From Deltaproteobacteria bacterium (GTDB taxonomy: Bacteria; Myxococcota_A; UBA9042; DTJE01; S145-11), in NCBI GenBank assembly GCA_015493765.1, contig WGCQ01000180.1, positions 1-32,375 of the forward strand: a stretch of DNA of 32,375 nucleotides. Reading direction: 5' to 3'. The notes under the pieces were generated by a model. It saw only the letters and a list, made by a program, of their open reading frames with translations, did no database searches and had not been told where the DNA came from. Positions 4,879 to 22,932 of this stretch are shown here, piece by piece. Both the position numbers and the translations under genes were made by a program. Position 1 is the first letter of the stretch. Every line of letters starts with the position of its first letter.

Positions 4879-4904
4879 CTTTCCTCCAACAAAAAAGCCC
4901 GAAT

Positions 4905-4933: not shown

Positions 4934-4951
4934 GCCCGATAGGATGATTTT

Positions 4952-4976: not shown

Positions 4977-4990
4977 TTGAGAAAAATGGT

Positions 4991-5019: not shown

Positions 5020-5046
5020 GCCTTGGCCTTTTTGATGGGAATGAAT

Positions 5047-5505
5047 ATGGAACGTCAAACGAAAAGTTTTGCAACAGGTCAGGTGTCCAGGAATTGGGTA
5101 TTGGTGGACCTCGACGGTGTACCGCTGGGAAGGGCTGCAACCAGGATCGCGGATATCCTGCGCGGCAAGCACAAACCTGAATTTACCCCCCATGCGGATG
5201 TGGGTGATTTCGTGGTGGTAATCAATGCATCCAAGGTAAAACTGACCGGTAAAAAAATGGCGGACAAGGTGTACTATCACCATACCGGGTATATAAATCA
5301 CCTCAAGGTCCGGCACGTGGAGCATTACCTGGAAAACAACCCGGCTTTCATTATCAGGCACGCGGTAAAAGGGATGCTGCCCAAGAACCGGCTCAGCCGC
5401 CAGTTGCTGAGGAAAATGAAGGTGTATCCAGGTGCCGAGCATCCACACGCGGCACAACAGCCCAGAAAGATTGACGTAATGAAGAAAGTACAGGAGGTTG
5501 CATGA
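5047..5505 (+). CDS. rplM: 50S ribosomal protein L13
   Basis: L13 is an early-assembly protein of the large subunit. The product (152 residues from ATG 5047) shows the family blocks RNWVLVDLDGVPLGRAAT, LRGKHKPEFTPHADVGDFVVVINA, the KxTGKKMxDKxYYHHTGY block, AVKGMLPKNRLSR and the conserved PGAEHPHAAQQP near the C terminus. Three in-frame ATGs (5035, 5041, 5047) are available. I favour 5047 because GGGA lies seven bases upstream and the N terminus then aligns with usual L13 proteins. The stop overlaps the rpsI start by four bases (ATGA), the universal rplM-rpsI pairing. Confidence 0.96.
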   Translation: MERQTKSFATGQVSRNWVLVDLDGVPLGRAATRIADILRGKHKPEFTPHADVGDFVVVINASKVKLTGKKMADKVYYHHTGYINHLKVRHVEHYLENNPAFIIRHAVKGMLPKNRLSRQLLRKMKVYPGAEHPHAAQQPRKIDVMKKVQEVA

Positions 5506-5906
5506 GCCCCGCTGATGCAAAATGGGATGGTTACGGAACCGGACGCAGGAAAAACGCTGTAGCCAGGGTATGGATTAAAAAGGGTAGCGGTAAGGTGACT
5601 ATTAACCATCGCACGATCGAGGATTACCTACCCAGGCAGGCCCATCGCTTGCATGCAATGGAGCCGTTGGAAACCGTGGACAAGGCCAAGGCATTCGATG
5701 TCATGGTAAACGTGCACGGTGGTGGCCTTACAGGCCAGGCCGGTGCGATCAGGCTGGGTATTGCCCGCGCACTAATACAGTTTGACCCTGAATTGCGTCC
5801 GGCCCTGAAAAAGGAGCGTATGCTGACCAGGGATCCCAGAATGGTGGAACGCAAAAAATACGGGCATCCCAAGGCCAGGAAACGCTTCCAGTTCTCGAAA
5901 CGTTGA
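5502..5906 (+). CDS. rpsI: 30S ribosomal protein S9
   Basis: S9 sits in the head of the small subunit, and its C-terminal tail reaches the P-site tRNA. The 134-residue product has the expected GTGRRKNAVARVWIKKGSG opening, VHGGGLTGQAGAIRLGIARAL and the terminal KARKRFQFSKR tail. The start overlaps the rplM stop (ATGA) after AGGAGGTT in the end of rplM, indicating translational coupling. Its own TGA overlaps the TTG of the next open frame. Confidence 0.97.
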   Translation: MSPADAKWDGYGTGRRKNAVARVWIKKGSGKVTINHRTIEDYLPRQAHRLHAMEPLETVDKAKAFDVMVNVHGGGLTGQAGAIRLGIARALIQFDPELRPALKKERMLTRDPRMVERKKYGHPKARKRFQFSKR

Positions 5907-6910
5907 TTGTATCCTCCGTATTGTTCCGGACCATATTGCTGGTCCTTCCCCTCTTAGGAATCAAAATCACGCCGATAGGTCGGGGACCTATAAAAACAAT
6001 TATCAGTGATACATTGGGACAACAGGTCAAGCACATTGCAACCGATGCCTCGGGTTTCGTAATTGCAATAAAACCTGAAAACACATGCGTCCTGCCATTT
6101 TCAAAACCAACGTGCCTGCTGACCCGTTTTGGCCGCGTGATTCACATGGAAAAGTATATGCTGGTCGGGCCATTTACCGGCCACCTGGCCATCAACAGGG
6201 TCATCGGGCTAAACGTTCGTTTCGAGGGGGCCCCGGTTTCCCGCAACTCTGCAACCGCGGTCGTGGTACTGGAATCCACACATTCGAATACCGCTGCGGG
6301 CGGCATCGTGTTGCTGGGTCAGGGAATGAGCAGCCCCCGCATCAGGCCTGTGGGACTGCCATGTGAGGGCATGTACGCGGTGGACGTAATGTATTCGGGT
6401 ATCGATCCGGCACTGGGCAGGGTATGGCATCGCAGTGTCATATCATTAAAGCAGGGCCAGCCTGTGGCGTTATTTTCCACCGGTGGCTTCAGCATGGGAC
6501 CTACCGGTGCATTCAGCGCAGGCCCGTCATATTGGTTCAGCCAGCCGTTCAGTAACGCCGTACACCTGACCGCCTGGGGGTTCGATGGCTGTAAACTGCT
6601 AAGCACATCCCTGGACCTGTCCCGGGGCCACTCCATACGGGTACATAGCGTGTTGGCAGACCTCGATACAAATCAGAAAAGTTCCAAGGAATTCGATATC
6701 AAAAGCCCTTTGAACCTGGACGCATTAAAGTCAAAAAACCCTGTGGCAATCGCCGGGTGGTTACTGGCTGCTGGCCGCATGTTGCGGCTCCTGCCTGTTC
6801 CGGTATTATGGTGGGCATTCAAGGCGGAATGGACCTTTGTCACCTATTCGCTCACGGAACTACCGTTGAATTACGAACGTGTCCGGGTCTTGTGGCTGGC
6901 TGAGGGATAG
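5903..6910 (+). CDS. Unknown protein coupled to rpsI, possible membrane anchor
   Basis: I do not recognise this 335-residue protein. It opens with a hydrophobic run (VLFRTILLVLPLLGI, about 7-21) that could be a signal anchor. The middle is Gly/Ser/Val-rich and looks beta-structured, and a second hydrophobic patch lies near the C terminus (about 288-315, AIAGWLLAAGRMLRLLPVPVLWW). The proposed TTG start at 5903 overlaps the rpsI TGA (TTGA), implying translational coupling. No clear ribosome-binding site is seen and a TTG at 5921 is an alternative. The frame is open for over 1 kb while the other frames are broken, which supports it being real. Sharing a transcript with rplM-rpsI would make it highly expressed unless it is attenuated. 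The repeat element B follows 6 bases after the stop. Confidence 0.6.
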   Translation: MIVSSVLFRTILLVLPLLGIKITPIGRGPIKTIISDTLGQQVKHIATDASGFVIAIKPENTCVLPFSKPTCLLTRFGRVIHMEKYMLVGPFTGHLAINRVIGLNVRFEGAPVSRNSATAVVVLESTHSNTAAGGIVLLGQGMSSPRIRPVGLPCEGMYAVDVMYSGIDPALGRVWHRSVISLKQGQPVALFSTGGFSMGPTGAFSAGPSYWFSQPFSNAVHLTAWGFDGCKLLSTSLDLSRGHSIRVHSVLADLDTNQKSSKEFDIKSPLNLDALKSKNPVAIAGWLLAAGRMLRLLPVPVLWWAFKAEWTFVTYSLTELPLNYERVRVLWLAEG

Positions 6911-6916
6911 TTTTTA

Positions 6917-7124
6917 CCCAAAATACCGGGCACAATTGTTCTGAAAGTAGGTCGGATACAAGGGATTGAGCCTGTTTTGTTCGTGCCTTTGGCACTCGCT
7001 AGCCTCCGGCTGATAGAGTAAGCGCAGGTATAACAGCGTTACGTCGAGCATACACAGATGAAAATGATGCAGTAACCGGACCGCTTGATGCAACCGATTC
7101 CCGAGTTTAGTCAGGTAATTTGGG
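6917..7124. repeat. Long palindromic intergenic element, copy B (CCCAAATTACC family)
   Basis: The left end CCCAAAATACC (6917-6927) and right end GGTAATTTGGG (7114-7124) match the family termini. The right half, from GTCGAGCAT near 7042 onward, aligns over about 82 bases with copy C, including ATGAxAATGA, GGACCGxTTG and the TTTAGTCxGGTAATTTGGG end. A TAAC-AGC-GTTA hairpin precedes the GTCGAGCAT block, as hairpins of other sequence do in copies A and C. Confidence 0.8.
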
Positions 7125-7125
7125 T

Positions 7126-7155
7126 TTTACATCCAGGCCTGTTTGGACCTATAAT
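7126..7155 (+). promoter_or_regulatory. Promoter of the thioredoxin-like gene
   Basis: TTTACA (7126-7131) and a perfect TATAAT (7150-7155) are 18 bases apart. The -35 abuts the end of repeat element B. Transcription would start around 7162, only about five bases before ATG 7167, so the mRNA would be nearly leaderless. Confidence 0.6.
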
Positions 7156-7166
7156 CCAACGGCCTT

Positions 7167-7688
7167 ATGAGTAAAAAAATGACAAAAAAACAAAAGGCCT
7201 GGGAAATAATCCGGGAACTGCTAATAACTGCGCTGTTGGTTTTGATTTTCAGCAATGTAATCAGTTATTTACGACAACCAAAACTGAAATCAAACAAAGT
7301 GCCGGCAATGGAGGTACGGCTGATTGACAACAGCATCTTCAAGCCGCCAAAAGGCCATCCCCTGATAATACACTTCTGGGGTACCTGGTGCCCCGTATGC
7401 AGGATGGAAGCGCCTAATATAAACTGGATATCCAAACACTACGACGTGTTAACCATTGCGGTCAATTCGGGTGGCAACTCCAGTTTGAAGGCATTTATGA
7501 GGCAAAAAGGCCTGGCTTTCAAGGTCCTGAACGATCCAAAAGGCCTGTGGGCGAGGCGTTTCAGGATACACGCATTCCCAACCACCTTTATTTACGACAG
7601 CAAGGGTAAATTGAGGTTTGCCGAGGTCGGATACACCACCACAATAGGGCTACTGGTACGATTGTGGTGGGTGGGATTGACGGGATAG
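7167..7688 (+). CDS. Membrane-anchored thioredoxin-like (TlpA/ScsD-type) thiol-disulfide protein
   Basis: The 173-residue product has a short Lys-rich cytoplasmic start, one membrane helix (about 15-35) and a thioredoxin-fold domain facing the periplasm. The redox motif is WCPVC, with Cys75 and Cys78 inside HFWGTWCPVCRMEAPN. The cis-proline loop is in FPTTFIYDSKGK. The CPVC dipeptide and the single anchor resemble the protein-disulfide oxidoreductase/ScsD group. The likely role is redox control of periplasmic cysteines, and the cysteine-repeat protein at 31.7-32.1 kb is one possible kind of client, by inference only. It appears monocistronic. I see no Shine-Dalgarno sequence, which fits the nearly leaderless promoter. 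ATG 7179 (residue 5) is an alternative start. Confidence 0.9.
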   Translation: MSKKMTKKQKAWEIIRELLITALLVLIFSNVISYLRQPKLKSNKVPAMEVRLIDNSIFKPPKGHPLIIHFWGTWCPVCRMEAPNINWISKHYDVLTIAVNSGGNSSLKAFMRQKGLAFKVLNDPKGLWARRFRIHAFPTTFIYDSKGKLRFAEVGYTTTIGLLVRLWWVGLTG

Positions 7689-7744: not shown

Positions 7745-7775
7745 CTAAACACGGCCCAGGCCGTTGGAGAATCGA

Positions 7776-8909
7776 ATGCACGAAATATTTTTGGAAATAG
7801 CCAGGGACCCGATCGGTTACCTTCAATCATGGGCGAAGGGTTCGACCCGGGAACTGGCCCTGACGTTTTCAGGGTTGTTTCCCCTGGAATTGCTGGATGC
7901 CATGGGTTTTCACGGCGTGTGGCTGCCGCCGGTCCTGCGCAATCGTTACAACCGGGCCGACACCATGCTGCAGGTGTTCATGTGCAGCAGGGCACGTTCG
8001 TTCGTGGACGTGGTGGCCGGTTCGGAATTGCCTGTTGCAGCGATTGGGGCCGTGACGGACTGCGACGCAAAGGATGTGATCCCAGGGGTGCTGCACGCGG
8101 GCGGATGCGAAACACCGGTGGTTACACTGCGTATGCCCATACGCGTGGACACGCCAGCGGCTGTTGACTTTGCGGTCAACGGGGTCAGGCACTGGGTGGC
8201 CGAGGCCGAGCACGCATTCAACCGCAGGCTCGACCCCGATCTGCTGGCAGGTGCGTGCGCACTCAGGCTGCGCACCAGGCAGCGCCTGTCCGAAATGTTC
8301 CAGAAACTGGGCACGGAGGTGGACCCGGTATTCGCCTACTCGGCGGCTGTGAGCGCCCAGGTAATGGAGCCCGAGGCCTTTTTGCATGCCCTGGACGCGG
8401 CACCCTGGCCGAAACCGGATCACAAGCGACGCATGATACCGGTCCTGATGTCCGGATCGGAACTTCCGAACATAAAAATTATCGAGGACCTGGCCGGGCT
8501 CGGTGCCCTGATCGTGCTGGATGACACGGAAACAGGCACGCGTGCGGCATCCAGGCCCGTGCAGCACCCAGGTTGCCAGGACGCTGAAACGCCACCTCCA
8601 CCGGACCTGGACGGCCTGCTGGAGGCAATCGGTGCCGGCATCGTGTACAAAAAACACGGTCCAACCAAGGTCTCGCCGGCGGGCAACCGAATCCAGGGCA
8701 TTGTTTCTGCCGCACTGGACCGTGGCGTACAGGCGGCAGTGCTGGGATTGTTCAAATTCTGCGACCCGCACGCATTCGAGGCGCCCGCATTGATCGAGCA
8801 ATTGAAGATGGCGGGCATACACAGCATTGTGGTGGAAACGGACAAGGAAACCGGTCTGCTGGCCCGGGAACGCACCAGGTTGCAGACCCTGTTGGAGATA
8901 GTGGAATAA
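7776..8909 (+). CDS. 2-hydroxyacyl-CoA dehydratase/benzoyl-CoA reductase family subunit (HgdB/FldC-like)
   Basis: This is one of two iron-sulphur subunits of an oxygen-sensitive enzyme that, once activated by one high-energy electron, eliminates water from a 2-hydroxyacyl-CoA through a ketyl radical. The 377-residue product shows the family blocks FPLELLDAMGFHGVWLP, CSRARSF, TDCDA, KHGPTKVS and FCDPHAFEAPALIEQLKMAGI followed by VVETD. Cys70, Cys96 and Cys329 fall in the conserved blocks expected to hold the [4Fe-4S] cluster. GGAG at 7766-7769 sets ATG 7776. The next subunit starts one base after the stop, and the activator follows. The substrate is not evident; a reductase of the benzoyl-CoA type is less likely because only one activator ATPase is present. 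Confidence 0.85.
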   Translation: MHEIFLEIARDPIGYLQSWAKGSTRELALTFSGLFPLELLDAMGFHGVWLPPVLRNRYNRADTMLQVFMCSRARSFVDVVAGSELPVAAIGAVTDCDAKDVIPGVLHAGGCETPVVTLRMPIRVDTPAAVDFAVNGVRHWVAEAEHAFNRRLDPDLLAGACALRLRTRQRLSEMFQKLGTEVDPVFAYSAAVSAQVMEPEAFLHALDAAPWPKPDHKRRMIPVLMSGSELPNIKIIEDLAGLGALIVLDDTETGTRAASRPVQHPGCQDAETPPPPDLDGLLEAIGAGIVYKKHGPTKVSPAGNRIQGIVSAALDRGVQAAVLGLFKFCDPHAFEAPALIEQLKMAGIHSIVVETDKETGLLARERTRLQTLLEIVE

Positions 8910-8910
8910 C

Positions 8911-10101
8911 ATGGCAACACCAGGCAAACGGTTGAAACGGTTGATCGCAGGGCAAATGCTGGCCAGTCGGGGTCTGAAGACCCTGGGACGTCCGGTTGCG
9001 TGGGTGACCTCGGGTGCGCCGGTGGAACCCTTGCTGGCACTCGGCGTGATCCCGTTTTACCCGGAAAATCACTCTGCGATATGCGCTGCCAAGGGCATGG
9101 GCGCACCCTTGTGTCAGCAGGCGGAATCCATGCGCTACAGCCGCGACCTGTGCTCGTATTTCAGGGTGGACCTGGGCAGCCAGGTCACCGGGCAGAGCCC
9201 TTTCGGCGTGATTCCGGCTCCGGACCTGGTGGTTGCTTCGAACAACATCTGCGGGACCGTGCAAAACTGGTTTCGGATCATTGCGCAGCGCCACGGCGTG
9301 CCCTTTTTATTCGTGGACACACCCTATTCGGACAACCCACCCACGCGTGCCGAGGTCGAATACGTGCAGACGCAACTACAGGAATTGACGCAAAAGGTGG
9401 CCGGGCTGACAGGCCGCAAATTCAAGGAATCCGACCTGGTACGTGTGGAAAAAAACTCCCTGGAGGCATTGAAATTGTGGGCCGAAATCCTGCATTTCGG
9501 TGCGGAGAAACCCGCGTACTTCACCAGTTTCGATGCATTCGTGTACATGTATCCCATCGTGACCCTGCGGGGGACCAGGTGGGCGGTGTGGTTTTACAAA
9601 AAACTGTTGCAGGACATCAAGGACAGGCGCAGGCACGGTCAGCAGTCGGTCCCTGGCGAGCGGGCCAGGGTCGTGTGGGACAACATTGCGATGTGGCCTG
9701 TGCACAAGGGGCTGCGAAAATTTTTCATGCAGCACAACATCGCCCTGGTAACGGACACTTACACGGATGCATGGCGCTCCGATCACCTGGACCCGGCAAA
9801 GCCCTTCGAAAGCATGGCATTGTCGTACACGGACATCATCCTGAACCACGGCCCCATGTTCAGGGTGAACAAGTTGATCGCCATGGTCCGCGATTTCAAG
9901 GCCGACGGATTCATCCTGCACTCCAATCGCTCGTGTAAACGCTGGTCACTGGGTGCGTACGCCGTAAAAAAGATGGTCACCAAGGCCACCGGCGTGCCCG
10001 GACTGGTCATTGACGGGGACATGGCCGACCCCAGGGCGGTATCGCTGGATAACATAAAACACAGGCTGGAACCGTTTTTCGAGATGTTGACGGATGAGTA
10101 G
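8911..10101 (+). CDS. 2-hydroxyacyl-CoA dehydratase/benzoyl-CoA reductase family subunit (HgdA/BcrB-like)
   Basis: This is the second dehydratase subunit, 396 residues. The N-terminal half has VAWVTSGAPVEPLLALGVIPFYPENHSAIC and LCQQAESMRYSRDLCSYFRVDLG, typical of the BcrB/BzdO/FldB group. The C-terminal half ends with SNRSCKRWSLG and the characteristic IDGDMADPRAVS...FFEML signature. Conserved cysteines are visible in SAIC, LCQQ, DLCSYF, NNICG and RSCKR. It should form a heterodimer with the upstream gene product, each half with a [4Fe-4S] cluster. It starts one base after the upstream stop, and its end overlaps the activator start by eight bases, so the three genes are probably translated together in fixed ratio. 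Confidence 0.87.
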   Translation: MATPGKRLKRLIAGQMLASRGLKTLGRPVAWVTSGAPVEPLLALGVIPFYPENHSAICAAKGMGAPLCQQAESMRYSRDLCSYFRVDLGSQVTGQSPFGVIPAPDLVVASNNICGTVQNWFRIIAQRHGVPFLFVDTPYSDNPPTRAEVEYVQTQLQELTQKVAGLTGRKFKESDLVRVEKNSLEALKLWAEILHFGAEKPAYFTSFDAFVYMYPIVTLRGTRWAVWFYKKLLQDIKDRRRHGQQSVPGERARVVWDNIAMWPVHKGLRKFFMQHNIALVTDTYTDAWRSDHLDPAKPFESMALSYTDIILNHGPMFRVNKLIAMVRDFKADGFILHSNRSCKRWSLGAYAVKKMVTKATGVPGLVIDGDMADPRAVSLDNIKHRLEPFFEMLTDE

Positions 10102-10885
10102 TGATAACATGAAATTCCTGGGCCTGGACATAGGCTCCAGCGCCACCAAGGGCGTACTGATCGAGGATGGCAGGATTTTGAAACGCATCATCAGGCCGTC
10201 CACCCCGAACATGCAAACCGCTGCCGCCATGATGGCACGGGAAATCGATGCGCCTGACGCTGCGATCATCACCACAGGCTACGGCAGGGAATTGTTCGAT
10301 GGCCGCACTGACACGGTCAGCGAGATCACGGCGCTGGGCATGGGGATCAACGCTGTATTCCCCGGTGTACGAACCGTGATCGACATGGGTGGGCAGGACT
10401 CGAAGGTGGCGCTGCTGAACAATGGCAAGGTCGTGGATTTCACCATGAACGACCGGTGTGCAGCGGGCACGGGCCGGTTCCTGGAGGTCATGAGCCGCGT
10501 GCTGGATGTGCCAATCGAACATTTCGATGAAGAGGCCAAATCGACAACCGAATTGCAGCCCATTACCAGCACGTGCACGGTGTTTGCGGAATCCGAGGTG
10601 GTGGGCCTGATGTCCCGAAACGTTGCCATACCCAAGATCCTGCGCGGGCTTTTGGCGGGAATCGCCCAGCGCGTGGCAGCCCTGGCCGGCCAGGTAGGCG
10701 TTGTGGAGCCCATTGCCGCCACCGGGGGGCCCATGCATTCCCAGGCCGTGGTGGACGCATTGTCCGAGGCACTGGGTACACGCGTCCGGGCCGCACCACA
10801 CCCGCAAACCGTGACCGCATTGGGTGCGGCGCTCGTGGGCATCAAGCGCTCGGGCCGTGCATTACCCAGGGTGCAATGGGATTGA
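10094..10885 (+). CDS. Acyl-CoA dehydratase activase (HgdC-type ATPase)
   Basis: This 263-residue protein belongs to the BadF/BadG/BcrA/BcrD ASKHA ATPase family. It hydrolyses ATP to push one low-potential electron into the dehydratase. The N terminus has the ASKHA phosphate loop LGLDIGSSATKGV, followed by TTGYGRE, the second phosphate loop VIDMGGQDSKV and the C-terminal ATGGPMHS motif. Cys122 (MNDRCAAGTGRFLE) and Cys161 (STCTVFAESEV) are the two ligands that each monomer gives to the bridging [4Fe-4S] cluster of the homodimer. The size and single copy match HgdC-type activators rather than the paired BcrA/BcrD subunits. It overlaps the upstream dehydratase gene and the downstream permease gene. 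An ATG at 10109 is an alternative start. Confidence 0.93.
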   Translation: MSSDNMKFLGLDIGSSATKGVLIEDGRILKRIIRPSTPNMQTAAAMMAREIDAPDAAIITTGYGRELFDGRTDTVSEITALGMGINAVFPGVRTVIDMGGQDSKVALLNNGKVVDFTMNDRCAAGTGRFLEVMSRVLDVPIEHFDEEAKSTTELQPITSTCTVFAESEVVGLMSRNVAIPKILRGLLAGIAQRVAALAGQVGVVEPIAATGGPMHSQAVVDALSEALGTRVRAAPHPQTVTALGAALVGIKRSGRALPRVQWD

Positions 10886-12511: not shown

Positions 12512-14884
12512 TCAAGATGCCTTAAGAACAATGCCCTTATACGCGTCCAGTGTGACCTCCTGGCCGTTTTTCAGCATGGACATGGCCGATTTCATACCTA
12601 CCACTGCGGGTATGCCATACTCGCGGGCCACCACTGCACCATGGGACAAGGGGCTGCCGATCTCTGTAATCAGACCTCCAATGATACTGTAATATGGTGT
12701 CCACCCTATGTCCGTGTACTCGGAAACCATGATTTCACCCTTTTGCAACATCCTGGCGTCTGCCTGAGACCGCACAATGCGCACCTTTCCAGTCACCTTG
12801 CCGCGGCTCACCGGTATTCCCGTCAGTTGCCCGTCCATTTTTCCGGCCTCGTCCGCGGTTTCCAAAGGTACCGGAACCCCGAAAACCAGGTCCGGAAACG
12901 ACAACTGTTGCATCCGGGGATATAGATTACGCCTAAGATTGGCCTTTTCCATCCAGTCATCCCCGTTTCTTTCCTGTAACAGATGCCCAAGTTCCTGGTG
13001 GGTCAAAAAGTACACCTGGTCCGGGTCTGCCAGCAAGCCATCCCGTACCATCAGGTTCGACAGGACCCGATAGGCCATCTTGAATTGATATTGTACGCCC
13101 ACGGCCCAGGCCTTGGTCTGTTCACGACGCGCCACTGCAACCCTCGCCCGGGGCAACAGCAGTTTCAACACCAGCCGCTGTACCAGGTTGAGCCCGGAAA
13201 AATCATACCCATGTTGTCCATGGTTACCTGGGATGTCTTGTTCAGCCCCGGACAGCAATAAACGGGTTTTGGCCTGGAGGCTTTGCACCACGGGCACAGG
13301 GTCCACGGCCCATTCCTTTTCCCTGAGTTCAGCCTCCCTGACGCATCTATGGCCATGTCGCGCCAAGAACGCATTCCATCGCTCCCTCACCGATTCAGGA
13401 CCTTTTTGCTGCAACCACAACAGTGCGTCATCCATGGAGACATCCAGAAAATTTCGTGAAATGCCAGGCATCCTTGCCAGGCTTCCTGCAAGGTTATCAA
13501 TAGCCCTGAGCACACGGGCGCTCTCGATACCCGGGATGTCCGTAAAAAACCGGGCAGCCTGCTGTTGGTGTTCGTTTCGCGGTATTTTTCCCTTGGAGAT
13601 GATGTTGACAACGGCACTGAAATAGCTGCCGGACTGGGAGGATGATACGTAATGCAGGTCATATGCCCGAAACAGGACCTCCATATGACGGTCGATTAAC
13701 TGCCAGCACTCCAACGCCGTTTGCGGGCAATCCAGCCTGAATTCCTCGTACAGTTTCCGCAGTCTCCTGGCCGCCCTCCCACCTCCTGATACGTACCGGT
13801 ACATACGAAACAGGTTCAGCAAGGCCCTGGGAAAGGATACCACCTTGTGGACCCGGATCCCGGGCACCACGGCGCCCACTACGGAAGAATCAATATTTTC
13901 CTTGGTGGCCAAAAGGGCATGCTGCGCAATAAGGTACAAACTGTTGACCTCGAAGAACAGGTGATTGTAGAATTTATGAACAAACAGGTTGTCAGTTGAG
14001 ATCGATTCCACGGCACCGGAGGTTTTGTAAAAACGCTGCAACCCCAGGTCAATAGCACGGACAAAGGTGGATGCGGTCAAAGGAGTTACCGGTCCTGGCA
14101 TCATTTCACCCACGTTACCACGGGTATAAACCGGTTTCGGATACAAGGGACGGTCATCCAGTTCGTTCATGTGCACGTCCACAAGACCGGTGACAGGTCG
14201 GAGTTGCAACCAATACAGTCTGCCATTGCGATCCACTGCAAATTCAAGGTCTGCCGGCCTGCCAAATTTCTTTTCTATTGCCAATGAACCGTGCGCCAGG
14301 GCAAAAAACAAGTCCCTGGGTAAATCATCAGGGGCCTTGGCATCATGCTTGTAAAACCTGAATGTACGCCCACCCTGCCTGCCGGACATCAGCGCCTCAC
14401 CCTGGCCCTGGGTAATGCTCAGCACACACATGTCATGCCTGTTTTGTACCGGGTCGGCCGTGAACAGGACCCCGGCAAATTCGGCATCCACCATCCGCTG
14501 GATTATCACGTTCATCACCACGTCCACACCGTCCTGGCTTAGATGTCCTTTATATGCCTGACTCCGTTGATTCAAAACAGAATCAAAGCACTGTTTAACT
14601 GCATGTAACAAAGGCTCACCCGGATCGACATCCAACAGGGTTTCAAACTGTCCTGCGAAGGAATACGTACCCCCATCCTCCACGGACGCAGAGGAACGCA
14701 CAGCGAATCGTTTGCCTTCCGGTAACGATGAAACAAAATGCTTCAATTCCCTGTCATCGTAATCCGTACCTGAAACAACAAAGGTCTGCGGTACATCGAA
14801 CCCCCAACTATGCAACAACCGCAATCCCTCAACCTTGCCTCCCGCGCTCCCAGGCTCTACCTGCTCAAGACGGAGAATTTTCAT
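12512..14884 (-). CDS. PEP-synthase-related dikinase of rifampicin-phosphotransferase architecture
   Basis: The 790-residue protein has an ATP-grasp PPDK-N domain at the N terminus: GGKVEGL (15-21), AVRSSASVEDGGTYSFAGQ (61-79), FAGVLFTADPV, and DLEFAVDRNGRLYWLQLRPVTG near 210-230. A long helical middle region follows. The mobile phosphohistidine domain is at the extreme C terminus, with His748 in GSPLSHGAVVAREYGIPAVVG. True PEP synthases and PPDK carry this domain in the middle, followed by a TIM barrel. This protein has no TIM barrel, so it matches the rifampicin phosphotransferase layout (ATP domain, substrate domain, His domain). The likely chemistry is transfer of the beta-phosphate of ATP through His748 to a substrate bound by the middle domain. 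The substrate is unknown. The gene overlaps the upstream unknown gene by 20 bases. Confidence 0.85.
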   Translation of the reverse strand: MKILRLEQVEPGSAGGKVEGLRLLHSWGFDVPQTFVVSGTDYDDRELKHFVSSLPEGKRFAVRSSASVEDGGTYSFAGQFETLLDVDPGEPLLHAVKQCFDSVLNQRSQAYKGHLSQDGVDVVMNVIIQRMVDAEFAGVLFTADPVQNRHDMCVLSITQGQGEALMSGRQGGRTFRFYKHDAKAPDDLPRDLFFALAHGSLAIEKKFGRPADLEFAVDRNGRLYWLQLRPVTGLVDVHMNELDDRPLYPKPVYTRGNVGEMMPGPVTPLTASTFVRAIDLGLQRFYKTSGAVESISTDNLFVHKFYNHLFFEVNSLYLIAQHALLATKENIDSSVVGAVVPGIRVHKVVSFPRALLNLFRMYRYVSGGGRAARRLRKLYEEFRLDCPQTALECWQLIDRHMEVLFRAYDLHYVSSSQSGSYFSAVVNIISKGKIPRNEHQQQAARFFTDIPGIESARVLRAIDNLAGSLARMPGISRNFLDVSMDDALLWLQQKGPESVRERWNAFLARHGHRCVREAELREKEWAVDPVPVVQSLQAKTRLLLSGAEQDIPGNHGQHGYDFSGLNLVQRLVLKLLLPRARVAVARREQTKAWAVGVQYQFKMAYRVLSNLMVRDGLLADPDQVYFLTHQELGHLLQERNGDDWMEKANLRRNLYPRMQQLSFPDLVFGVPVPLETADEAGKMDGQLTGIPVSRGKVTGKVRIVRSQADARMLQKGEIMVSEYTDIGWTPYYSIIGGLITEIGSPLSHGAVVAREYGIPAVVGMKSAMSMLKNGQEVTLDAYKGIVLKAS

Positions 14885-15887
14885 GGCTGTTATCCATATG
14901 CATACCCATTTCCGCTATGCCTATTCCCTTAATTCCGTCCCATGTAAAAAGCGCCTTAGCCTGTCGAATGCGGTAAATACCATCCATGACAAACGGAAAA
15001 AATTTCAGCATATCCACGCTCACTTCACTAATCCTGTTGTCAGGCATCTGGACAAAAAAGTTCAAATTGTGTGGCAGGGGCTCCCTCAGGTTAAACTCCC
15101 TGGTAGAGGGCGTGACCGTTAAGGTTATATACTGATTACCATCCCACAGAAAAGCAGCCCTAAGGTCATCAATAAACCTGTAATCTATTGCGCTAACATT
15201 GAAAAAGCGACCGTCTTCCAGCCTGCCAACCATCCATGCATGCCTGGACCACTGCTCCCAGCGCCTGATCCCGAAACTATGGTCCCGGACACCTGTCAGA
15301 TCCACCGTCTGTTGCTGCCCCCGCCATGTTATACTGCCACGGATCCGCCCTGCCTGTTCGTAATGAAAGGTACGTATGTCATTCAAATTCCTGAAAAAAT
15401 CCACTGTCCAGGGCCTGGCTGCCAACAGGTGTGCCACCATCTCAGGGTTGGTTCCTGTCAATTCAAAGTCTGCAATCGGCACATCACCAACCCACTCGAG
15501 GTCCAGTGTTACACCTGCTTCACGGTCACCATTAAATACAGGCCCATCGTATTCTATACTCCACCTGTGCCCAGGTTCGATACAGGTATAGGCCAGTTTT
15601 CCCTGCCTGAAGCCAGTTCCGGATTCCAGCGCCCTGTTTTCAAAACCCCAGACTCCATCACCGGGTATATCCAGTTTCAACCAGTTTTCAGGCGTCCTGC
15701 CCGTACGAAATGACAGGCGGGTAACCATGGAAAACCCGTCCTCTGATAAGCCTGCAAAATAGATGCTGTCATTGAAATCTTTGCGTCGTGGATCGGTATG
15801 CCTCTGTTCAAGGAAACCCGTATCCTTCAGCCTGCCTCTCCTGCCAGCCAGCGTCCTGGCTATCATAAGTTTCAGCCATGTTTTCAT
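14865..15887 (-). CDS. Unknown protein, possibly lipocalin-like, paired with the dikinase
   Basis: The 340-residue product is rich in Trp, Arg and alternating hydrophobic strands, and has no signal peptide. A segment TGVRDHSFGIRRW (198-210) inside a run of predicted strands resembles the RDHSWG-type motif of AttH/CrtC lipocalin-like and DUF7064/7065-type proteins. That assignment is from memory and is tentative. ATG 15887 is preceded by AGGATGAAG. Its 3' end overlaps the dikinase start by 20 bases, so the two are one transcription unit and very probably work on the same substrate. A binding or cyclase-like role with a hydrophobic small molecule is inference only. Confidence 0.7.
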   Translation of the reverse strand: MKTWLKLMIARTLAGRRGRLKDTGFLEQRHTDPRRKDFNDSIYFAGLSEDGFSMVTRLSFRTGRTPENWLKLDIPGDGVWGFENRALESGTGFRQGKLAYTCIEPGHRWSIEYDGPVFNGDREAGVTLDLEWVGDVPIADFELTGTNPEMVAHLLAARPWTVDFFRNLNDIRTFHYEQAGRIRGSITWRGQQQTVDLTGVRDHSFGIRRWEQWSRHAWMVGRLEDGRFFNVSAIDYRFIDDLRAAFLWDGNQYITLTVTPSTREFNLREPLPHNLNFFVQMPDNRISEVSVDMLKFFPFVMDGIYRIRQAKALFTWDGIKGIGIAEMGMHMDNSHENSPS

Positions 15888-16130: not shown

Positions 16131-19100
16131 TTACCAGGTCACCATGTCCTTGGCAACGGCCTTGCCGCGTGCAATGAAATGCACCCGGGCACGGTTTGCA
16201 AAGGTATCCAGCATGTTTGGAACCCTGGATTTATCGCCCACGTCAAAGGGCAAGGCAGGCAGGTTGCGGGCCTTGAACAGGTCATAACGCCGCTGGACCT
16301 CTGCATCGATGTCGCCCAGTTTCACGCCCAGTTTCGAGGCCAGGTCAGCCATGACCTGCAACGCATCCCGGTCCACCCAGGCACGGATACCCGCATTGAA
16401 TTTCACCAGTTTGCCCTCCGCATTGACCATGCTGCCTGTGCCCTCGAACGGCAGGGTCACGGGCAGGACCACGTCCGCATAGTCCAGCAACGCACTGTCA
16501 TGCGTATCGAACACGACCACGTGTTTTGCCCTCTTGACCCGGTCCAGGTCCTCCGCATCCGCGGACGGGTTATCCCTGAACAACACGAAGGTTGCGTCAT
16601 TGGCATCACGCAGGACCTCGAAGGTCGTTTCCGCGGCCTCGGCCCGCTCGGTCGCACCCATCACCCACAGTCCCGCAGCATTGAACGGCTGGCGGATGAT
16701 CAACAGTTTGGGCTCCCCGTCCCGGGCCACCTTGGCCAGCATGTATGCCAGCCACAGGTCCTGGGAATAGGCGCTGTCCGTGCCGTCCGCACCGAAAATG
16801 ACCAACGGATTCTTTGCATCCCTGAACAGGGCGGACAGTTTGTTGCCCAGGCTTTGCATCTCGGTGCTGACCTCCACGTCCTCGATACGCTCGGCAATCG
16901 GGTGTTCACAGCCCTCGGAGATGTGCTGCACCGCGCCGGCCAGCATGCCTGAAACCATGCCCTTGGGCACTACGAAATCCGTGGTAGCATGCCTGGCCAG
17001 GCCCTTGGTAAAACCAGAGGGTATGATCAACTGGGCACCCTTGTCGTAACGGGCACGCAGTATGCGATGCCACACCACCTCCTGCTCGTGCACCGCATCG
17101 GGATTCAGCACCAGGATCAGGTCCGCTTTATCAATATCCGCGTACTCGGCATTGCCCTGGCCCAGCACGCTGTCCTTGCCCAGGGTGTCAGGCCCGACCG
17201 CGGTGTACAGTTCATAGCGGCTGCCCACCATGCCGCCTGCCCCGCGAATCAGCCTGGAAAACGCCACCATCTGCTGGTTCGTGGCCCAGGGGCTCAGCAG
17301 GCCCACGTTGTTTTTGCCCTTCATCAATCCGGCAGCGGCCTCGATTGCCTCGTCCCAGCCGACCTCCTGCAGGGCGCCGTTCTTGCGCACCATGGGGCGG
17401 GTCAGGCGGTCGTCCTTCACCACCGCGTTGCCGTAACGCCCCGTACCGCACAGGTCCGTGAAATTACCGTCCCAGGACTTGCGGGACCTGACCGATACCA
17501 TGCGGTCCGTGTACTGGTGCACGCTGATCTCGCACGCCGCAGGACACAACTGGCACACCGTGGCATTGGTATCGTGCTTGATCGGCGTGATGATATCGAA
17601 GTCGTCCTTTTGCAGGATCGCACCGGTCGGGCAGATCTCGGTGCAGTTGCCGCACCCGGTGCACACGCTCTCGTCGAAATCCCCGGCCTGGAACACGACC
17701 TGGGTGTCAAAACCGCGGTCCTTGAATGCCAGGGCGTCCACGTGCATGTACTCGTCGCAGTAACGCACGCACCTCATGCACAGCACGCACTTATTGGGGT
17801 CGATCTCGAAATACGGGTTGCGTTTTTCAATGGGCCGCCTGGGGGAGTCGCCCTTGAACGTGGGCTTGGGCAGTTTGTACGTGTCCGCCAAATAGCGCAA
17901 TTCGCATTCATCAAAATCCGCACACCCGCAGAACAGGCACTTGGATGCCTCCTCCTGGGCAGCCTTGTCCGTGGGGGGCAACTGGACCTCCAAATGATAA
18001 TTACGTGCCCTCTCCTTCGGATCCCTGGCAGGATACCAGTTGCGCTTACCCTTTGGTATGGCCGCGGTTTCATACTCCGGCAGCCCGCCGAACGAGTCCT
18101 TGGTGGACAGGAACACGTTTTCCTGGTCCACGTTGAAGCGATTGATCACCTTGCGGCCCTTCACCACTTCCGCCATGGCCAGCGCAGCCTTGCGGCCGTG
18201 TGCGATCGCATCGATCACCGCAGCCGGTCCCAGTACCACGTCGCCGCCTGCAAACAGCCACGGCAGGGCGGTCCTGCCGTACTCATCGATGGTTGCAATG
18301 GTGTGCCACCGGGTCACGGGCACCTTGATTTCGCCGTCGTCCACCGCGTTGCCCAGGTCCGTGACCTGGCCGATCGCTGCAAAGCAGTAGTCCGCATCCA
18401 CCAGGAATTCACTGCCCGGGATGGGCACGGGACGACGCCTGCCGGATTCATCCGGTTCGCCCAATTCCATCTTTTGCATCTTGACCTGCTTCAGCCGACC
18501 GTTTTCGCCAATCAATTCCACCGGGCTCTGCAGGAATTCGAACACAATGCCCTCTTCACGGGCCTCCTCCACCTCGTAGTGGTCAGCGGGCATCTCCTTT
18601 TCCGTGCGACGGTACAACACGTGCACGCTGTCCGCACCGGCACGCATGGCGGTCCTGCATACGTCGATCGCCGTGTTTCCACCGCCCAGGACCACGACCT
18701 TGCCGTGCAGTTTGGGCAGGCCTTTTTTCTTGGTCTCGATCAGGAAGTCCAAGGCCGGCCGCACGCCCTCCAAATCCTCGCCCGGTATGCGCAATCCCCG
18801 TGATCCCTGGGCACCCAATGCCAGGAACACGGCGTCATACCTGGCATGCAACTCGGACAACGTGATGTCCTTGCCCAGCCTCACGCCGGTCCGTACCTCG
18901 ATCCCGCCCTGCGACAGGATGTGGTTGATTTCCTTGTCCAGAACCTCCTGGGGAAGGCGGTAATCCGGTATACCGTAACGCATCATGCCGCCCAGTTTCT
19001 CGTGGGCCTCGAAGATCACGGAGCCGATCCCCTGCTGCCTCAGGTAGTGCGCCGCGCTGAGTCCGCCCGGACCGCCGCCCACGATGGCCACGGTCTTGCC

Positions 19101-19670
19101 CTCGATCAGCGCCGGTGGCTCGGGAAACGGCGTCTCCAAGGCATGGTCCGCCAGGTAGCGCTTGACCATGTTGATCGATATGGGTTCATCCACCTCCTGG
19201 CGGCGGCACGCCAGTTCGCAGTAACGCACGCACACGCGGCCTACGGACGCGGGGAATGGGTTCTTTTCACGCACCAGGTTCAGCCCACGTTCGAATTCAC
19301 CCAGTTTTGCCAGCCGCAGGTATGCCTGGACATCCACGCCGGTCGGGCAATTCAGACGGCACGGTGCGATGCAGTCCGCGTTGTGGTTGGACAACAGCAA
19401 ATCGATCGCGGTCTTGCGGATGTTTTCCAGCCGGTCGTTGTGCGCCGTCACCTTCATGCCGTCCTGGACCTTGGTCGTACATGCCAGGGGCAATCCACGC
19501 ATGCCCTCGATCTCGACCACGCACAGCGAGCACGCGCCGATCGGGTTCAATTTCGGGCTGTGGCACAACGTGGGTATGAATCCCAGGTGTTTTTCCCGGA
19601 TCACGTCCAAAACGGTCTGACCTTCCCTGGCCTCGACCTCTTTACCGTCTATGTTTACCTTTATTGCCAT
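16131..19670 (-). CDS. GltD-NuoG fusion: FAD/NAD(P) iron-sulphur oxidoreductase
   Basis: This 1179-residue cytoplasmic subunit joins several electron-transfer modules. Residues about 1-75 are a NuoG-type [2Fe-2S] domain (C-x10-C-x2-C-x13-C). Next is a GltD/NfnB-type module: CIAPCRLNCPTGVD and VCVRYCELACRR bind [4Fe-4S], VGGGPGGLSAAHYLR binds FAD, LGGGNTAIDVCR binds NAD(P), and FAGGDVVLGPAAVIDAIAHGRKAA closes the fold. A Cys-rich link and a two-cluster ferredoxin follow (CVLCMRCVRYC; CTGCGNCTEICP). The rest is a NuoG/formate dehydrogenase-like domain with the CxxCxxxC cluster but no Cys or Sec at the molybdenum-ligand position that I can see. ATG 19670 has a perfect GGAGGA upstream. NuoF and NuoE precede it in the operon, so a soluble NAD(P)H-linked, possibly bifurcating complex is likely. 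Confidence 0.88.
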   Translation of the reverse strand: MAIKVNIDGKEVEAREGQTVLDVIREKHLGFIPTLCHSPKLNPIGACSLCVVEIEGMRGLPLACTTKVQDGMKVTAHNDRLENIRKTAIDLLLSNHNADCIAPCRLNCPTGVDVQAYLRLAKLGEFERGLNLVREKNPFPASVGRVCVRYCELACRRQEVDEPISINMVKRYLADHALETPFPEPPALIEGKTVAIVGGGPGGLSAAHYLRQQGIGSVIFEAHEKLGGMMRYGIPDYRLPQEVLDKEINHILSQGGIEVRTGVRLGKDITLSELHARYDAVFLALGAQGSRGLRIPGEDLEGVRPALDFLIETKKKGLPKLHGKVVVLGGGNTAIDVCRTAMRAGADSVHVLYRRTEKEMPADHYEVEEAREEGIVFEFLQSPVELIGENGRLKQVKMQKMELGEPDESGRRRPVPIPGSEFLVDADYCFAAIGQVTDLGNAVDDGEIKVPVTRWHTIATIDEYGRTALPWLFAGGDVVLGPAAVIDAIAHGRKAALAMAEVVKGRKVINRFNVDQENVFLSTKDSFGGLPEYETAAIPKGKRNWYPARDPKERARNYHLEVQLPPTDKAAQEEASKCLFCGCADFDECELRYLADTYKLPKPTFKGDSPRRPIEKRNPYFEIDPNKCVLCMRCVRYCDEYMHVDALAFKDRGFDTQVVFQAGDFDESVCTGCGNCTEICPTGAILQKDDFDIITPIKHDTNATVCQLCPAACEISVHQYTDRMVSVRSRKSWDGNFTDLCGTGRYGNAVVKDDRLTRPMVRKNGALQEVGWDEAIEAAAGLMKGKNNVGLLSPWATNQQMVAFSRLIRGAGGMVGSRYELYTAVGPDTLGKDSVLGQGNAEYADIDKADLILVLNPDAVHEQEVVWHRILRARYDKGAQLIIPSGFTKGLARHATTDFVVPKGMVSGMLAGAVQHISEGCEHPIAERIEDVEVSTEMQSLGNKLSALFRDAKNPLVIFGADGTDSAYSQDLWLAYMLAKVARDGEPKLLIIRQPFNAAGLWVMGATERAEAAETTFEVLRDANDATFVLFRDNPSADAEDLDRVKRAKHVVVFDTHDSALLDYADVVLPVTLPFEGTGSMVNAEGKLVKFNAGIRAWVDRDALQVMADLASKLGVKLGDIDAEVQRRYDLFKARNLPALPFDVGDKSRVPNMLDTFANRARVHFIARGKAVAKDMVTW

Positions 19671-19681
19671 CGATTCCTCCG

Positions 19682-21442
19682 TCAATCCATGATAATCGCA
19701 TCATCCGGGCATACCCTGAAGCAACCTGCACAGTGGATGCACCCTTCCTGGTTGATATAGTGAACTTGTTTGGGCGCGCCCGTGATGGTGTCGCTGGGAC
19801 AGGACTGGGCACACAGGGTGCAGCCCGTGCACTTCTCCGGGTCCACCGTGAACGTGACCAGGGGCAGGCACTGGTGGGCGGGGCACTTCTTCTGGTAGAT
19901 GTGTGCCTCGTACTCCTCGCGGAAGTACTTCAACGTGGTCAACACCGGGTTTGGCGCGGTCTGACCCAGTCCGCAACGGGCCTGGTCCTTGATCACCTTT
20001 GCCAGACTTTCCAGTGTATCCAGGTCCTCGGGTTCGCCGTTGCCTTCCGTGATCCGGGTCAGGATGTCCAGCATGCGCCTGGTGCCCACGCGGCACGGTA
20101 TGCACTTGCCGCAGCTCTCTTTTTGCGTGAATTCCAGGAAGAACCGGGCCACCTCGACCATGCAGGTCTTGTCGTCCAGCACGATCATACCGCCGGAGCC
20201 CATGATCGCGCCGGTCGCCGTGATCTTTTCGTAATCGATCGGCGTGTCGCCCAGTCTGGCCGGTATGCACCCGCCGGACGGACCGCCCATCTGCACGGCC
20301 TTGAACTTGCCGTCGTCCACGATGCCGCCGGCCACGTCCATCACCACCTCGTTGATCGTGATGCCCATGGGCACCTCCACCAGTCCGGTGCGCTTGGACT
20401 TGCCCGCCAGCGCGAACACCTTGGTGCCCTTGCTCTTTTCCGTGCCCATGGACGCAAACGCCTGGGCCCCGTTCAGGATGATCCACGGGATATTTGCAAA
20501 GGTTTCAACGTTATTAATGTTCGTGGGCTTGCCCCACAGGCCGTGGTTCGCAGGATACGGCGGCCTGGTCCTGGGCACTCCGCGGTAGCCCTCGATCGAT
20601 GCGATCAAGGCCGTTTCCTCGCCGCACACGAAGGCGCCGGCGCCCTCCTTGACCCGCAGGTCGAAATTGAATCCCTGGTGTCCCATGATATTTTCACCCA
20701 GGAAACCATGCGCCCTGGCCTGCTCGATGGCCTCGTTGAAATGCCGCACCGCCCTGGGATACTCGGCACGGATGTACGCGTAACCGCGGCTGGCACCGAT
20801 TGCATACGCCCCGATCAGCATACCTTCGATCACGCTGTGCGGGTCCGATTCCAGCACGGTACGGTCCATAAATGCACCGGGGTCGCCCTCGTCGCCGTTC
20901 ACCACCAGGAACTTGGGTTCGCCCTTGGCAGCCCTCGCAAACTTCCACTTCAGCCCTGTCGGGAAGCCTGCACCGCCACGGCCCCTCAAACCGGAATCCA
21001 GCATCTCCTGGATCACCTGTTCCGGGGTCATGGACGTCAGCACCTTTTCAATGGCCTTGTAGCCGTCCCGCTCCATGTAGTCCTCGATGCTATGCGGGTT
21101 GATCAGGCCGCTGTTGCGCAGCACGATCTTTTTTTGTTTGCCGTAGTATTGCTGGTACTCGGCCTCGTCCATCAGGTATTCATCGGCCTTTTTGCCCTCG
21201 AGGTGGGCCTGCACGATCGCCTCGGCCTTTTTCGGGTCCACCTGGACATAGAATGCGGATTCGCCCTTGTCCTCGTCCCTGACCTCGATGATCGGCTCCC
21301 TGGCGCACAGCCCGATGCAGCCGGTTTCCTGCAATTCAAAGGGCAGGTTTTCCTTTTCAATCAGCTCCTTGAGCCGGTCATAAACAGCGTCGGCCCCTGC
21401 ACTGACGCCGCAGGTGGCCATACCAACGTATATCTTTTGCAT
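19682..21442 (-). CDS. NuoF/HydB-type NADH-binding flavoprotein subunit
   Basis: The 586-residue subunit binds NADH and FMN. Domain order is that of HydB/HndC of electron-bifurcating hydrogenases rather than respiratory NuoF. There is an N-terminal thioredoxin-like [2Fe-2S] region (ATCGVSAGA and GCIGLC). The FMN/NADH domain follows with GLRGRGGAGFPTGLKW, VVNGDEGDPGAFMDR, the GAGAFVCGEETAL block and YPANHGLWGKPTNINNVET. Next is the cluster domain with SCGKCIPCRVGT, and last an added C-terminal ferredoxin with two [4Fe-4S] motifs (CTGCTLCAQSCP and CIHCAGCFRVCP). The NuoE gene lies 12 bases upstream and the GltD-NuoG fusion 11 bases downstream. The FMN subunit is the usual hydride-splitting site of such complexes. 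Confidence 0.93.
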   Translation of the reverse strand: MQKIYVGMATCGVSAGADAVYDRLKELIEKENLPFELQETGCIGLCAREPIIEVRDEDKGESAFYVQVDPKKAEAIVQAHLEGKKADEYLMDEAEYQQYYGKQKKIVLRNSGLINPHSIEDYMERDGYKAIEKVLTSMTPEQVIQEMLDSGLRGRGGAGFPTGLKWKFARAAKGEPKFLVVNGDEGDPGAFMDRTVLESDPHSVIEGMLIGAYAIGASRGYAYIRAEYPRAVRHFNEAIEQARAHGFLGENIMGHQGFNFDLRVKEGAGAFVCGEETALIASIEGYRGVPRTRPPYPANHGLWGKPTNINNVETFANIPWIILNGAQAFASMGTEKSKGTKVFALAGKSKRTGLVEVPMGITINEVVMDVAGGIVDDGKFKAVQMGGPSGGCIPARLGDTPIDYEKITATGAIMGSGGMIVLDDKTCMVEVARFFLEFTQKESCGKCIPCRVGTRRMLDILTRITEGNGEPEDLDTLESLAKVIKDQARCGLGQTAPNPVLTTLKYFREEYEAHIYQKKCPAHQCLPLVTFTVDPEKCTGCTLCAQSCPSDTITGAPKQVHYINQEGCIHCAGCFRVCPDDAIIMD

Positions 21443-21454
21443 CTTTCCTCCGAC

Positions 21455-21964
21455 TCAGTTCGATTCCTGTTCAGCCTTCATTTCCTTCAATGTCTTGCGG
21501 TGGATTCGCTTCATCAACCGCTTGACCTTGCTGGCATCCAGTTTGCCGTACACCTTGCCGTCGATCATGACCACAGGCGCCAGGCTGCAACAACCCAGGC
21601 AGGCAACCGCCTCCACCGTGAACACGCCGTCCTCGGTGGTGTTACCAGGCCGGATACCGAAATCCTCCTCGATCTGGTCGATCAGCATGTTCGAACCGCT
21701 CACGTGACACGCGGTACCATCGCACACCTTGACCACGTGACGGCCCGGCTTCTCCAGCCTGAACTGCTTGTAAAAACTGATGATTCCATAGATATCCGTC
21801 TCGGGCGTGCCCGTGGCCGCACTGATATCCTTGATCACCTTTTTCGGGATGTAGCCGTACTCGGCCTGCGAGGTCTGCATCAATTTAATAACATAGTCCC
21901 TGGTGGAGTGGCCTTCCCACAGGAAGGTACTCACAGGGGATAGTTTTTCATCCGGTTTTGCCAT
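21455..21964 (-). CDS. NuoE/HydC-type [2Fe-2S] subunit
   Basis: The 169-residue thioredoxin-like ferredoxin subunit partners the NuoF-type subunit. It has the N-terminal helical bundle (LMQTSQAEYGYIPKKVIKDISAATGTPETDIYGIISFYKQF) and the four ligands in the usual pattern: CDGTAC, then CLGCC about 40 residues later. The Lys-rich tail is slightly longer than typical. It starts three bases after the stop of the upstream REC-like gene, so the four genes form one operon. Confidence 0.94.
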   Translation of the reverse strand: MAKPDEKLSPVSTFLWEGHSTRDYVIKLMQTSQAEYGYIPKKVIKDISAATGTPETDIYGIISFYKQFRLEKPGRHVVKVCDGTACHVSGSNMLIDQIEEDFGIRPGNTTEDGVFTVEAVACLGCCSLAPVVMIDGKVYGKLDASKVKRLMKRIHRKTLKEMKAEQESN

Positions 21965-21967
21965 GAC

Positions 21968-22867
21968 TTACTCCACCTCCAGGATATTGAGGCCTGCAAA
22001 GAGGTCCACACCAAGGACCTGGGGCAAGGCATACACGCCGTGCTCCAGGGTGTCCTGCAGTATGGGCAGGGAAACACCAGCCAACTGGATCAACGCATAC
22101 TTGCCGTCCACTGACACGCTGGTCACGCCCGGACACATCGCCAGTTTGACGCCCATGTTGTCCGGGTCCAGCAACCGGACCCGGGCGAATGCAAAACTAA
22201 TCGCCTCAATCGTGGCCCGCCTGGCACCCAGCAGTGCATTTACGACCTTGTCCGTGCTGTTCGGGAATATGAAGGCCTCGGACGCATCCACGCCTTCGGT
22301 TTTGGCCAGTGCATCCAGTTTTGCCTGCACCGCGGCCTGGTCACCGGCCTGCACGCGTGCGATCATGTGCCAGTTCGGGTCCTGCAGCGCCCATACAGCA
22401 GCGCCCCCAGACATCAGGGCGTTGAATAGTGCCGGTGCATGGAGCCCGTCCGCAGCCCTGGCCAGCATGTAGCCGGAAAAACCGGTTTCCGCATCGGGCA
22501 GGGGCGTAGTAACCTCGCGTATCGGCGCCTCTTTCAGGGCCTTGGCCATGTCATCGGAACCCAATACCACACCAATGCCGGCGGCCTTTAACTGGTCCTC
22601 GACCTTGTCCATCGGCTCAGGCAGCCAACCGAACACGTTGGCCCGGGGATTCAGCATGGTTGCGGCCTTCAGCAATGCAATCGCATCGTACCAAAAAGGC
22701 CCGACTGCCAGCACAAAGGCATCGTAGTCCGCACCCATGGCATTGATCGCCGCATCCACCCGGTCAAAAGACAACACTTCCCAACCGGCGGCCTGCAACA
22801 CGTTCACAGCCCGTGCCAGCATACCGGCATCGGGCTGGATAATGATTACTCGTTTTTTGTCACCCAT
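21968..22867 (-). CDS. Unknown protein with receiver-like N-terminal domain, first gene of redox operon
   Basis: The 299-residue protein begins KKRVIIIQPDAGMLARAVNVLQAAGWEVLSFDRVDAAINAMGADYDAFVLAVGPF, which looks like the beta-alpha start of a response-regulator receiver fold. A conventional phospho-acceptor Asp is not clear: the expected position reads YDAFVLAVGPF. The remaining ~180 residues are Ala-rich with no motif I recognise. ATG 22867 follows AGGTGG; an upstream in-frame ATG has no such site. Because it is first in the NuoE-NuoF-GltD/NuoG operon and only three bases from NuoE, it is likely a regulatory or assembly partner of that complex, but this rests on context alone. Confidence 0.75.
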   Translation of the reverse strand: MGDKKRVIIIQPDAGMLARAVNVLQAAGWEVLSFDRVDAAINAMGADYDAFVLAVGPFWYDAIALLKAATMLNPRANVFGWLPEPMDKVEDQLKAAGIGVVLGSDDMAKALKEAPIREVTTPLPDAETGFSGYMLARAADGLHAPALFNALMSGGAAVWALQDPNWHMIARVQAGDQAAVQAKLDALAKTEGVDASEAFIFPNSTDKVVNALLGARRATIEAISFAFARVRLLDPDNMGVKLAMCPGVTSVSVDGKYALIQLAGVSLPILQDTLEHGVYALPQVLGVDLFAGLNILEVE

Positions 22868-22932
22868 CTTCCACCTCAAAAAGCCCGGATTTCTATTAAC
22901 ACATGCCACGTCTGAAATAAAGGGGTAATCGT

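Follow-up and report, generated by a model that had tools for sequence, protein, structure and literature searches.

In the anaerobic breakdown of cholesterol a molybdenum enzyme gives rise to a tertiary alcohol, the kinase 25-HSK phosphorylates it, and a lyase eliminates the phosphate to leave an alkene (PMC7411048, PMC8449060, PMC11061730). The phosphoryl-transfer potential of tertiary-alcohol phosphate esters equals or exceeds that of the outer phosphate of ATP; that of the steroid 25-phosphate is slightly above, and the 25-HSK reaction is fully reversible (PMC8449060). Dehydration by a kinase plus a phospholyase (25-HSK and 25-phosphosteroid lyase, 25-PSL) is thus already known, as are small-molecule dikinases. 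In rifampin phosphotransferase (RPH), Lys22, Arg117, Thr136, Arg666 and Glu667 matter by mutation, and His825 carries the phosphate (PMC4844700). Here we analyse a stretch of 32,375 nucleotides (the window) from a Deltaproteobacteria bacterium (contig WGCQ01000180.1, assembly GCA_015493765.1), in which the gene for a 340-residue lipocalin-fold protein, called lp here, overlaps by 20 bases the gene for a 790-residue dikinase, dk. We propose, with a probability of about 0.6, that the two proteins form an ATP-driven dehydration module (phosphorylation followed by elimination), in which a dikinase replaces the kinase of the steroid system.

The pairing of dk and lp is a genuine two-gene unit, far beyond chance. 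When GTDB species genomes were scanned with an alignment of three lp sequences, 16 loci were obtained, in nine of which a full-length or contig-limited dk adjoins lp in the same orientation; L056 and L057 (L-numbers denote loci) among these nine belong to the query alignment itself, and the other seven are independent. Further loci of the 16 carry a dk fragment (L055), an APH kinase instead of dk (L063) or, in Thorarchaeota, a split dikinase 1.4 kb from lp on the opposite strand (L060). The pairs occur in Bacteroidota, Myxococcota/Deltaproteobacteria, Chloroflexota, Pseudomonadota and Thermoplasmatota, so that the co-occurrence in other genomes, on which an earlier note made from the letters of this DNA had let its reading depend, is borne out in several bacterial phyla and in archaea. 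Both gene orders, lp-dk and dk-lp, are found, which argues for function over the inheritance of a single operon.

A second sample, ranked by score and hence non-random, comprised 98 Myxococcota loci of the lp family, read with flanking sequence of at most ~4 kb. In eight of these (window excluded) dk lies on the same strand within 300 bp of lp, and in none is it found further out in the flanks, against fewer than 0.06 loci expected by chance on a rough estimate; three of the eight had been used to build the profile, and five are new. In the reverse test, on 284 genomes, the five best dk matches were all paired with lp and the next 25 were unpaired. In the dk tree the paired members fall into two or more lineages, and the window dk groups with L115 and L118, both paired; the window lp groups with the same two loci and L048, all paired. 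In L105 the dikinase is split into two genes with lp between them: at 3869-7609 (-) a 538-aa swivel component and a 399-aa ATP-grasp component bearing a second PEP-utiliser domain (PEP, phosphoenolpyruvate) are encoded. No fused lp-dk protein was noticed among the loci examined. Shared pathway genes around the pairs were considered and rejected, as the called neighbours seem to vary between loci, and no common pathway emerged from L115, L118 and L048, where the closest relatives of the pair in the window lie. Around unpaired relatives of the window dk, at L200, L201, L205 and L206, the neighbourhood is fixed and, as read from sequence, encodes F420/luciferase-like oxidoreductases together with a DUF1015-like protein; other dk lineages therefore seem to have other partners.

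A Pfam scan of dk gave PPDK_N (E 2.5e-39) and PEP-utilizers at residues 714-784 (E 7.6e-22), and the PEP/pyruvate-binding barrel was absent from it. The nearest solved whole-length relative is RPH, at ~20% identity. His748 of dk aligns with the phosphohistidine His825, and in the pairwise alignment R63, T82, R587, E588, K591 and H748 are the counterparts of Arg117, Thr136, Arg666, Glu667, Lys670 and His825; K17, the lysine that is invariant throughout the family alignment, is that of Lys22. The domains, the alignment and the conserved catalytic residues agree with the rifampicin-phosphotransferase architecture, with His748 and without the barrel, that the earlier note had described. Because the catalytic residues of RPH correspond in dk, its sequence makes it very probably an active small-molecule dikinase. 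Both the ATP-grasp and the swivel domain are on one chain, so dk falls outside the two-component dikinases typified by HpeHI and PpsAB.

By curated cut-offs dk is neither RPH, a PigC/RedH ligase nor a PEP synthase. It scores 252 bits against NF041857 (rifamycin phosphotransferase; cut-off 999), 239 and 248 bits against the PigC/RedH profiles (cut-offs 1300 and 1350, respectively) and 193 bits against TIGR01418 (PEP synthase; cut-off 740). PEP-synthase activity was a result that the earlier note had named as counting against its own reading. The idea of dk as a divergent form of PEP synthase, with lp as an unrelated neighbour, draws on the ATP-grasp and swivel domains common to both enzymes, but it is already contradicted by the missing barrel, and with the low score and the conserved pairing with lp we give it next to no chance. 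Inactivation of an antibiotic, also raised in that note, would mean that rifamycin or some other drug is the substrate of dk and that lp assists; RPH is indeed the closest solved enzyme and has its catalytic residues in common with dk. Yet the score lies far below the cut-off, the identity is low, and the alignment to RPH fails over the first half of the rifampicin-binding domain. The region of the rifampicin-binding residues (Gln336/337, Tyr351, Val368 and Phe479) is unalignable to dk, and the dk model is weak there (pLDDT 39-60 in parts), as is the fold prediction as a whole (pLDDT 73, pTM 0.53). Distant RPH clades, moreover, are without the rifampicin signature, and a clade N protein gave no rifampicin resistance (PMC4844700). 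We therefore consider a role in drug inactivation very improbable.

The predicted structure of lp is confident (pLDDT 85.8, pTM 0.83) and supports the label lipocalin-like that the protein had been given. In a Foldseek search of the PDB with this model, 25-PSL ranked first (E 2e-13, TM 0.55-0.60), followed by AttH NE1406 and then by lipocalin-like pericyclases (Fsa2, CghA and Phm7). In Pfam, lp is above the gathering cut-off for DUF7064 (31.6 against 24.7) and just below that for DUF7065 (25.6 against 27; 27.1 with the neighbours in frame); against Rv3169_fam (NF053593) it scores 30.3 bits, below the cut-off of 150. A 16-member profile of the lp family finds 25-PSL from sequence (E 3.5e-19). 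The clade of the window lp is homologous along its length to lp proteins paired with APH kinases (hhalign E 2e-30), which themselves reach 25-PSL at E 4.6e-12. For 25-PSL the PDB entries are 9fzn, 9g2i and 9g4c. The RDHSFG motif of lp aligns with its RDRSWG, and in 9g4c Asn replaces the Asp of the motif (RNRSWG), the sole difference across the stretch shown; this entry is presumably an engineered active-site variant. Conserved in the lp family are H175, E177, Q178, R201, D202, S204, G206, R208, W218 and E326.

These residues bear on what lp does. The earlier note saw in lp the handler of the substrate. On such a reading lp would have no catalytic role and would only deliver a hydrophobic molecule to dk, the phosphate ester being the final product. 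The lipocalin fold and the joint encoding of the two proteins would suit such a carrier, but the conserved polar residues D202, R201, Q178, E326 and H175 exceed its needs, and 25-PSL, the nearest relative with a solved structure, is an enzyme and has this Asp too, which is Asn in one deposited variant; we hold this option to be unlikely. For dk itself the best guess is still that it uses ATP to phosphorylate a small molecule, possibly a hydrophobic one, and on the modelled fold and the sequence profiles lp more likely catalyses the step that follows, a 25-PSL-like elimination of the phosphate, than acts as a carrier. About as doubtful as the carrier is a biosynthetic pair in which phosphorylation by dk activates a substrate and lp, resembling a cyclase or pericyclase, makes a carbon-carbon bond, in the manner of the PigC/RedH prodiginine ligases and the lipocalin-like Diels-Alderases. 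It is true that dk aligns to RedH and PigC about equally well as to RPH, and that the structure search with lp also brought up Fsa2, CghA and Phm7. However, 25-PSL and AttH outrank the pericyclases, strong significance in sequence-profile comparison is reached for 25-PSL only, no genes resembling polyketide or non-ribosomal peptide synthases were noticed around the window pair, and partnership with APH kinases suits phosphate chemistry better.

That partnership is a general one in the lp family. An APH-type phosphotransferase lies within 700 bp of the lp relative in 20 of the 98 Myxococcota loci, 19 times co-directionally, and at 700-4000 bp in seven; the profile used was grown from lp neighbours, and the count may miss other APH kinases. 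Three of these proteins were confirmed by Pfam, and none of the 98 loci has both dk and an APH kinase. DUF7064/7065 proteins stand by same-strand APH-type phosphotransferases at L103, L104, L117, L119, L123, L126, L127, L132, L134, L136, L137, L139, L144, L165, L173 and others. With the APH partners and the split dikinase of L105 besides dk, the lp family associates with small-molecule kinases of two unrelated superfamilies. Rv3168 of Mycobacterium tuberculosis (PDB 3ats, among the APH structure matches) we take to be an APH-type kinase. Its neighbour Rv3169 is the namesake of the lp-family profile Rv3169_fam, and the adjacent pair is co-regulated by one TetR repressor (PMC5340868).

At L095 a dk-lp pair is followed 95 bp on, on the same strand, by the alpha subunit of a molybdenum enzyme of the type II DMSO-reductase family, the family of steroid C25 dehydrogenase (S25DH) (PMC8449060); this neighbour places the dikinase in the position of 25-HSK. 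APH-lp pairs are found near the same type of enzyme at L063, L132 and L134, the last two being nearly identical. Type II DMSO reductase-like molybdenum enzymes also occur near lp-family genes with no adjacent kinase at L097, L100, L169 and L171, which are candidate loci of anaerobic sterol-type degradation in Myxococcota. On plasmids there was one distant lp match, in Sulfitobacter (L216; NZ_CP018080.1, 164061-172409). The operon there encodes a TRAP transporter, an APH-type phosphotransferase family protein, an AMP-binding protein, an acyl-CoA dehydrogenase and the lp-family protein, and is possibly a catabolic operon with the same kinase-lyase logic.

From the pairing, the fold match, the motif and the conserved residues we infer two reactions and their order. 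In the first, as the architecture and the catalytic residues suggest, dk would load the beta-phosphate of ATP onto His748 and pass it to a hydroxyl group of the substrate, small and probably hydrophobic, that its middle domain binds, as RPH and HpeHI do. In the second, for which fold, motif and kinase association speak, the double lipocalin barrel of lp would bind the phosphorylated product and expel the phosphate, leaving an alkene, as 25-PSL does when cholesterol is degraded anaerobically; the candidate for the catalytic residue is Asp202 of RDHSFG. Given the high transfer potential of tertiary-alcohol esters, splitting of ATP to AMP by a dikinase would drive the phosphorylation forward. More tentatively, with odds that we put a little short of even, the pairs may represent a widespread and hitherto undescribed class of ATP-dependent dehydratases, present in archaea as well as bacteria. 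A His-swivel dikinase would phosphorylate an alcohol that is itself unreactive (tertiary), the phosphate would then be eliminated by a phospholyase of lipocalin fold, and the lyase family would have drawn on kinases of two unrelated superfamilies to the same end.

Several observations weigh against the dehydration module. As a single query the window lp has no significant match in the PDB, and the profile of its four-member clade has none either, 25-PSL included; the link from lp to 25-PSL goes via relatives and the predicted fold. His175 and Glu177, conserved in the family, are replaced in 25-PSL, and the pericyclases Fsa2 and CghA have the lp fold too, with lower scores. Many lp relatives have no kinase alongside, the neighbours of the window pair point to no pathway, and we know of no dk-lp pair with known activity. 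No S25DH-like enzyme was detected in the window genome, an empty result that shows little as it had no control, and no squalene-hopene cyclase was found in it; a sterol or hopanoid substrate is therefore not indicated for this organism.

DUF7064 and DUF7065 are named nowhere in the literature searched, and the combination of a dikinase with a phospholyase is not described in it, a body of work that covers few subscription papers. The proposal gives a testable function to this family and to a branch of RPH-like dikinases. If true, there are two or more natural solutions to the ATP-driven dehydration of inert alcohols, which share the fold of the lyase and differ in the kinase; use of a dikinase would overcome the thermodynamic difficulty posed by the fully reversible 25-HSK phosphorylation, and the proposal would hint at what Rv3168-Rv3169 of the tuberculosis bacterium may do.

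The features of the two genes are collected in Table 1.

Table 1. Coordinates of lp, dk and their features within the window
Feature	Position	Strand	Remarks
lp	15887..14865	-	340 aa, ATG start; lipocalin-fold, DUF7064/DUF7065 family, phospholyase-like
lp residues 201-206, RDHSFG, codons	15270..15287	-	aligned with RDRSWG of 25-PSL; position computed from gene start 15887
lp end / dk start overlap	14865..14884	-	20 bases
dk	14884..12512	-	790 aa, ATG start; small-molecule dikinase (predicted)
dk ATP-grasp domain	residues about 1-235		
dk substrate-binding middle domain	residues about 240-685		
dk residues 587-591, REQTK, codons	13112..13126	-	aligned with Arg666-Glu667...Lys670 of RPH
dk swivel phosphohistidine domain	residues about 690-790		
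dk His748 codon	12641..12643	-	predicted phosphohistidine, GSPLSHGAVVAREYG; position computed from gene start 14884

Both genes are on the minus strand, lp first and dk second, and both open reading frames, their overlap and the RDHSFG motif are as the earlier note had them. Its claim of a single promoter is plausible from the tight overlap and from a Shine-Dalgarno-like AAGGA that precedes lp, but the promoter scan gave no sites above those in shuffled sequence and none upstream of lp; the terminator scan likewise gave no signal above shuffles. PADLOC found no defence-system match, and a defence system was accordingly rejected. The gene upstream of lp (16131-19685) is on the same strand, 243 bases off. 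It lies in a cluster at 16131-22909 (-) that reads, from sequence, as NuoE/NuoF/NuoG- or HydABC-like subunits and includes a 1184-aa fusion of an FAD-dependent oxidoreductase with an iron-sulphur/molybdopterin-type protein. At 7764-10885 (+) three consecutive genes resemble, again as read from sequence, subunits of 2-hydroxyacyl-CoA dehydratase or benzoyl-CoA reductase type and an ATP-dependent activator, and an anion transporter gene comes after them. A 149-aa open reading frame at 31655-32104 (-) has a signal-like start and several near-perfect repeats of ~20 residues (CGLIHDSDLRYFCRxD).

Compared with known systems, the window pair resembles 25-HSK and 25-PSL in joining a kinase to a lyase: lp has the fold of 25-PSL, an RDxSWG-type motif and sequence similarity at the level of the family, and many of its relatives stand by APH-type kinases, at times with molybdenum enzymes of the S25DH family. 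It differs in that dk is a His-swivel dikinase, expected to convert ATP to AMP, rather than a kinase of the phosphotransferase family, in that the genes overlap, whereas 25-HSK has no lyase candidate nearby (PMC8449060), and in that the genome offers no steroid context. In Rv3168-Rv3169, too, a protein of kinase fold and a member of the lp family are encoded side by side, controlled by a single repressor (PMC5340868), but the kinase there is of APH type, and the window lp is under the Rv3169_fam cut-off. With the two-component phenolic dikinases HpeHI, CreHI and PpsAB the pair has small-molecule dikinase chemistry in common, and L105 combines such a split dikinase with lp; in the window, however, dk is a single chain and the second gene, lp, is not an ATP-grasp component. 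AttH and the lipocalin-like pericyclases (NE1406, Fsa2 and CghA) have the double lipocalin-type barrel of lp, but are weaker matches to it than 25-PSL and have, to our knowledge, no kinase partner. RPH, finally, has the same ATP-grasp domain, middle substrate domain and C-terminal swivel His as dk, and the same conserved Lys, Arg, Thr, Arg, Glu, Lys and His; at ~20% identity, with another middle domain and a score far below the family cut-off, dk differs from it and has, in addition, a lyase-like partner.

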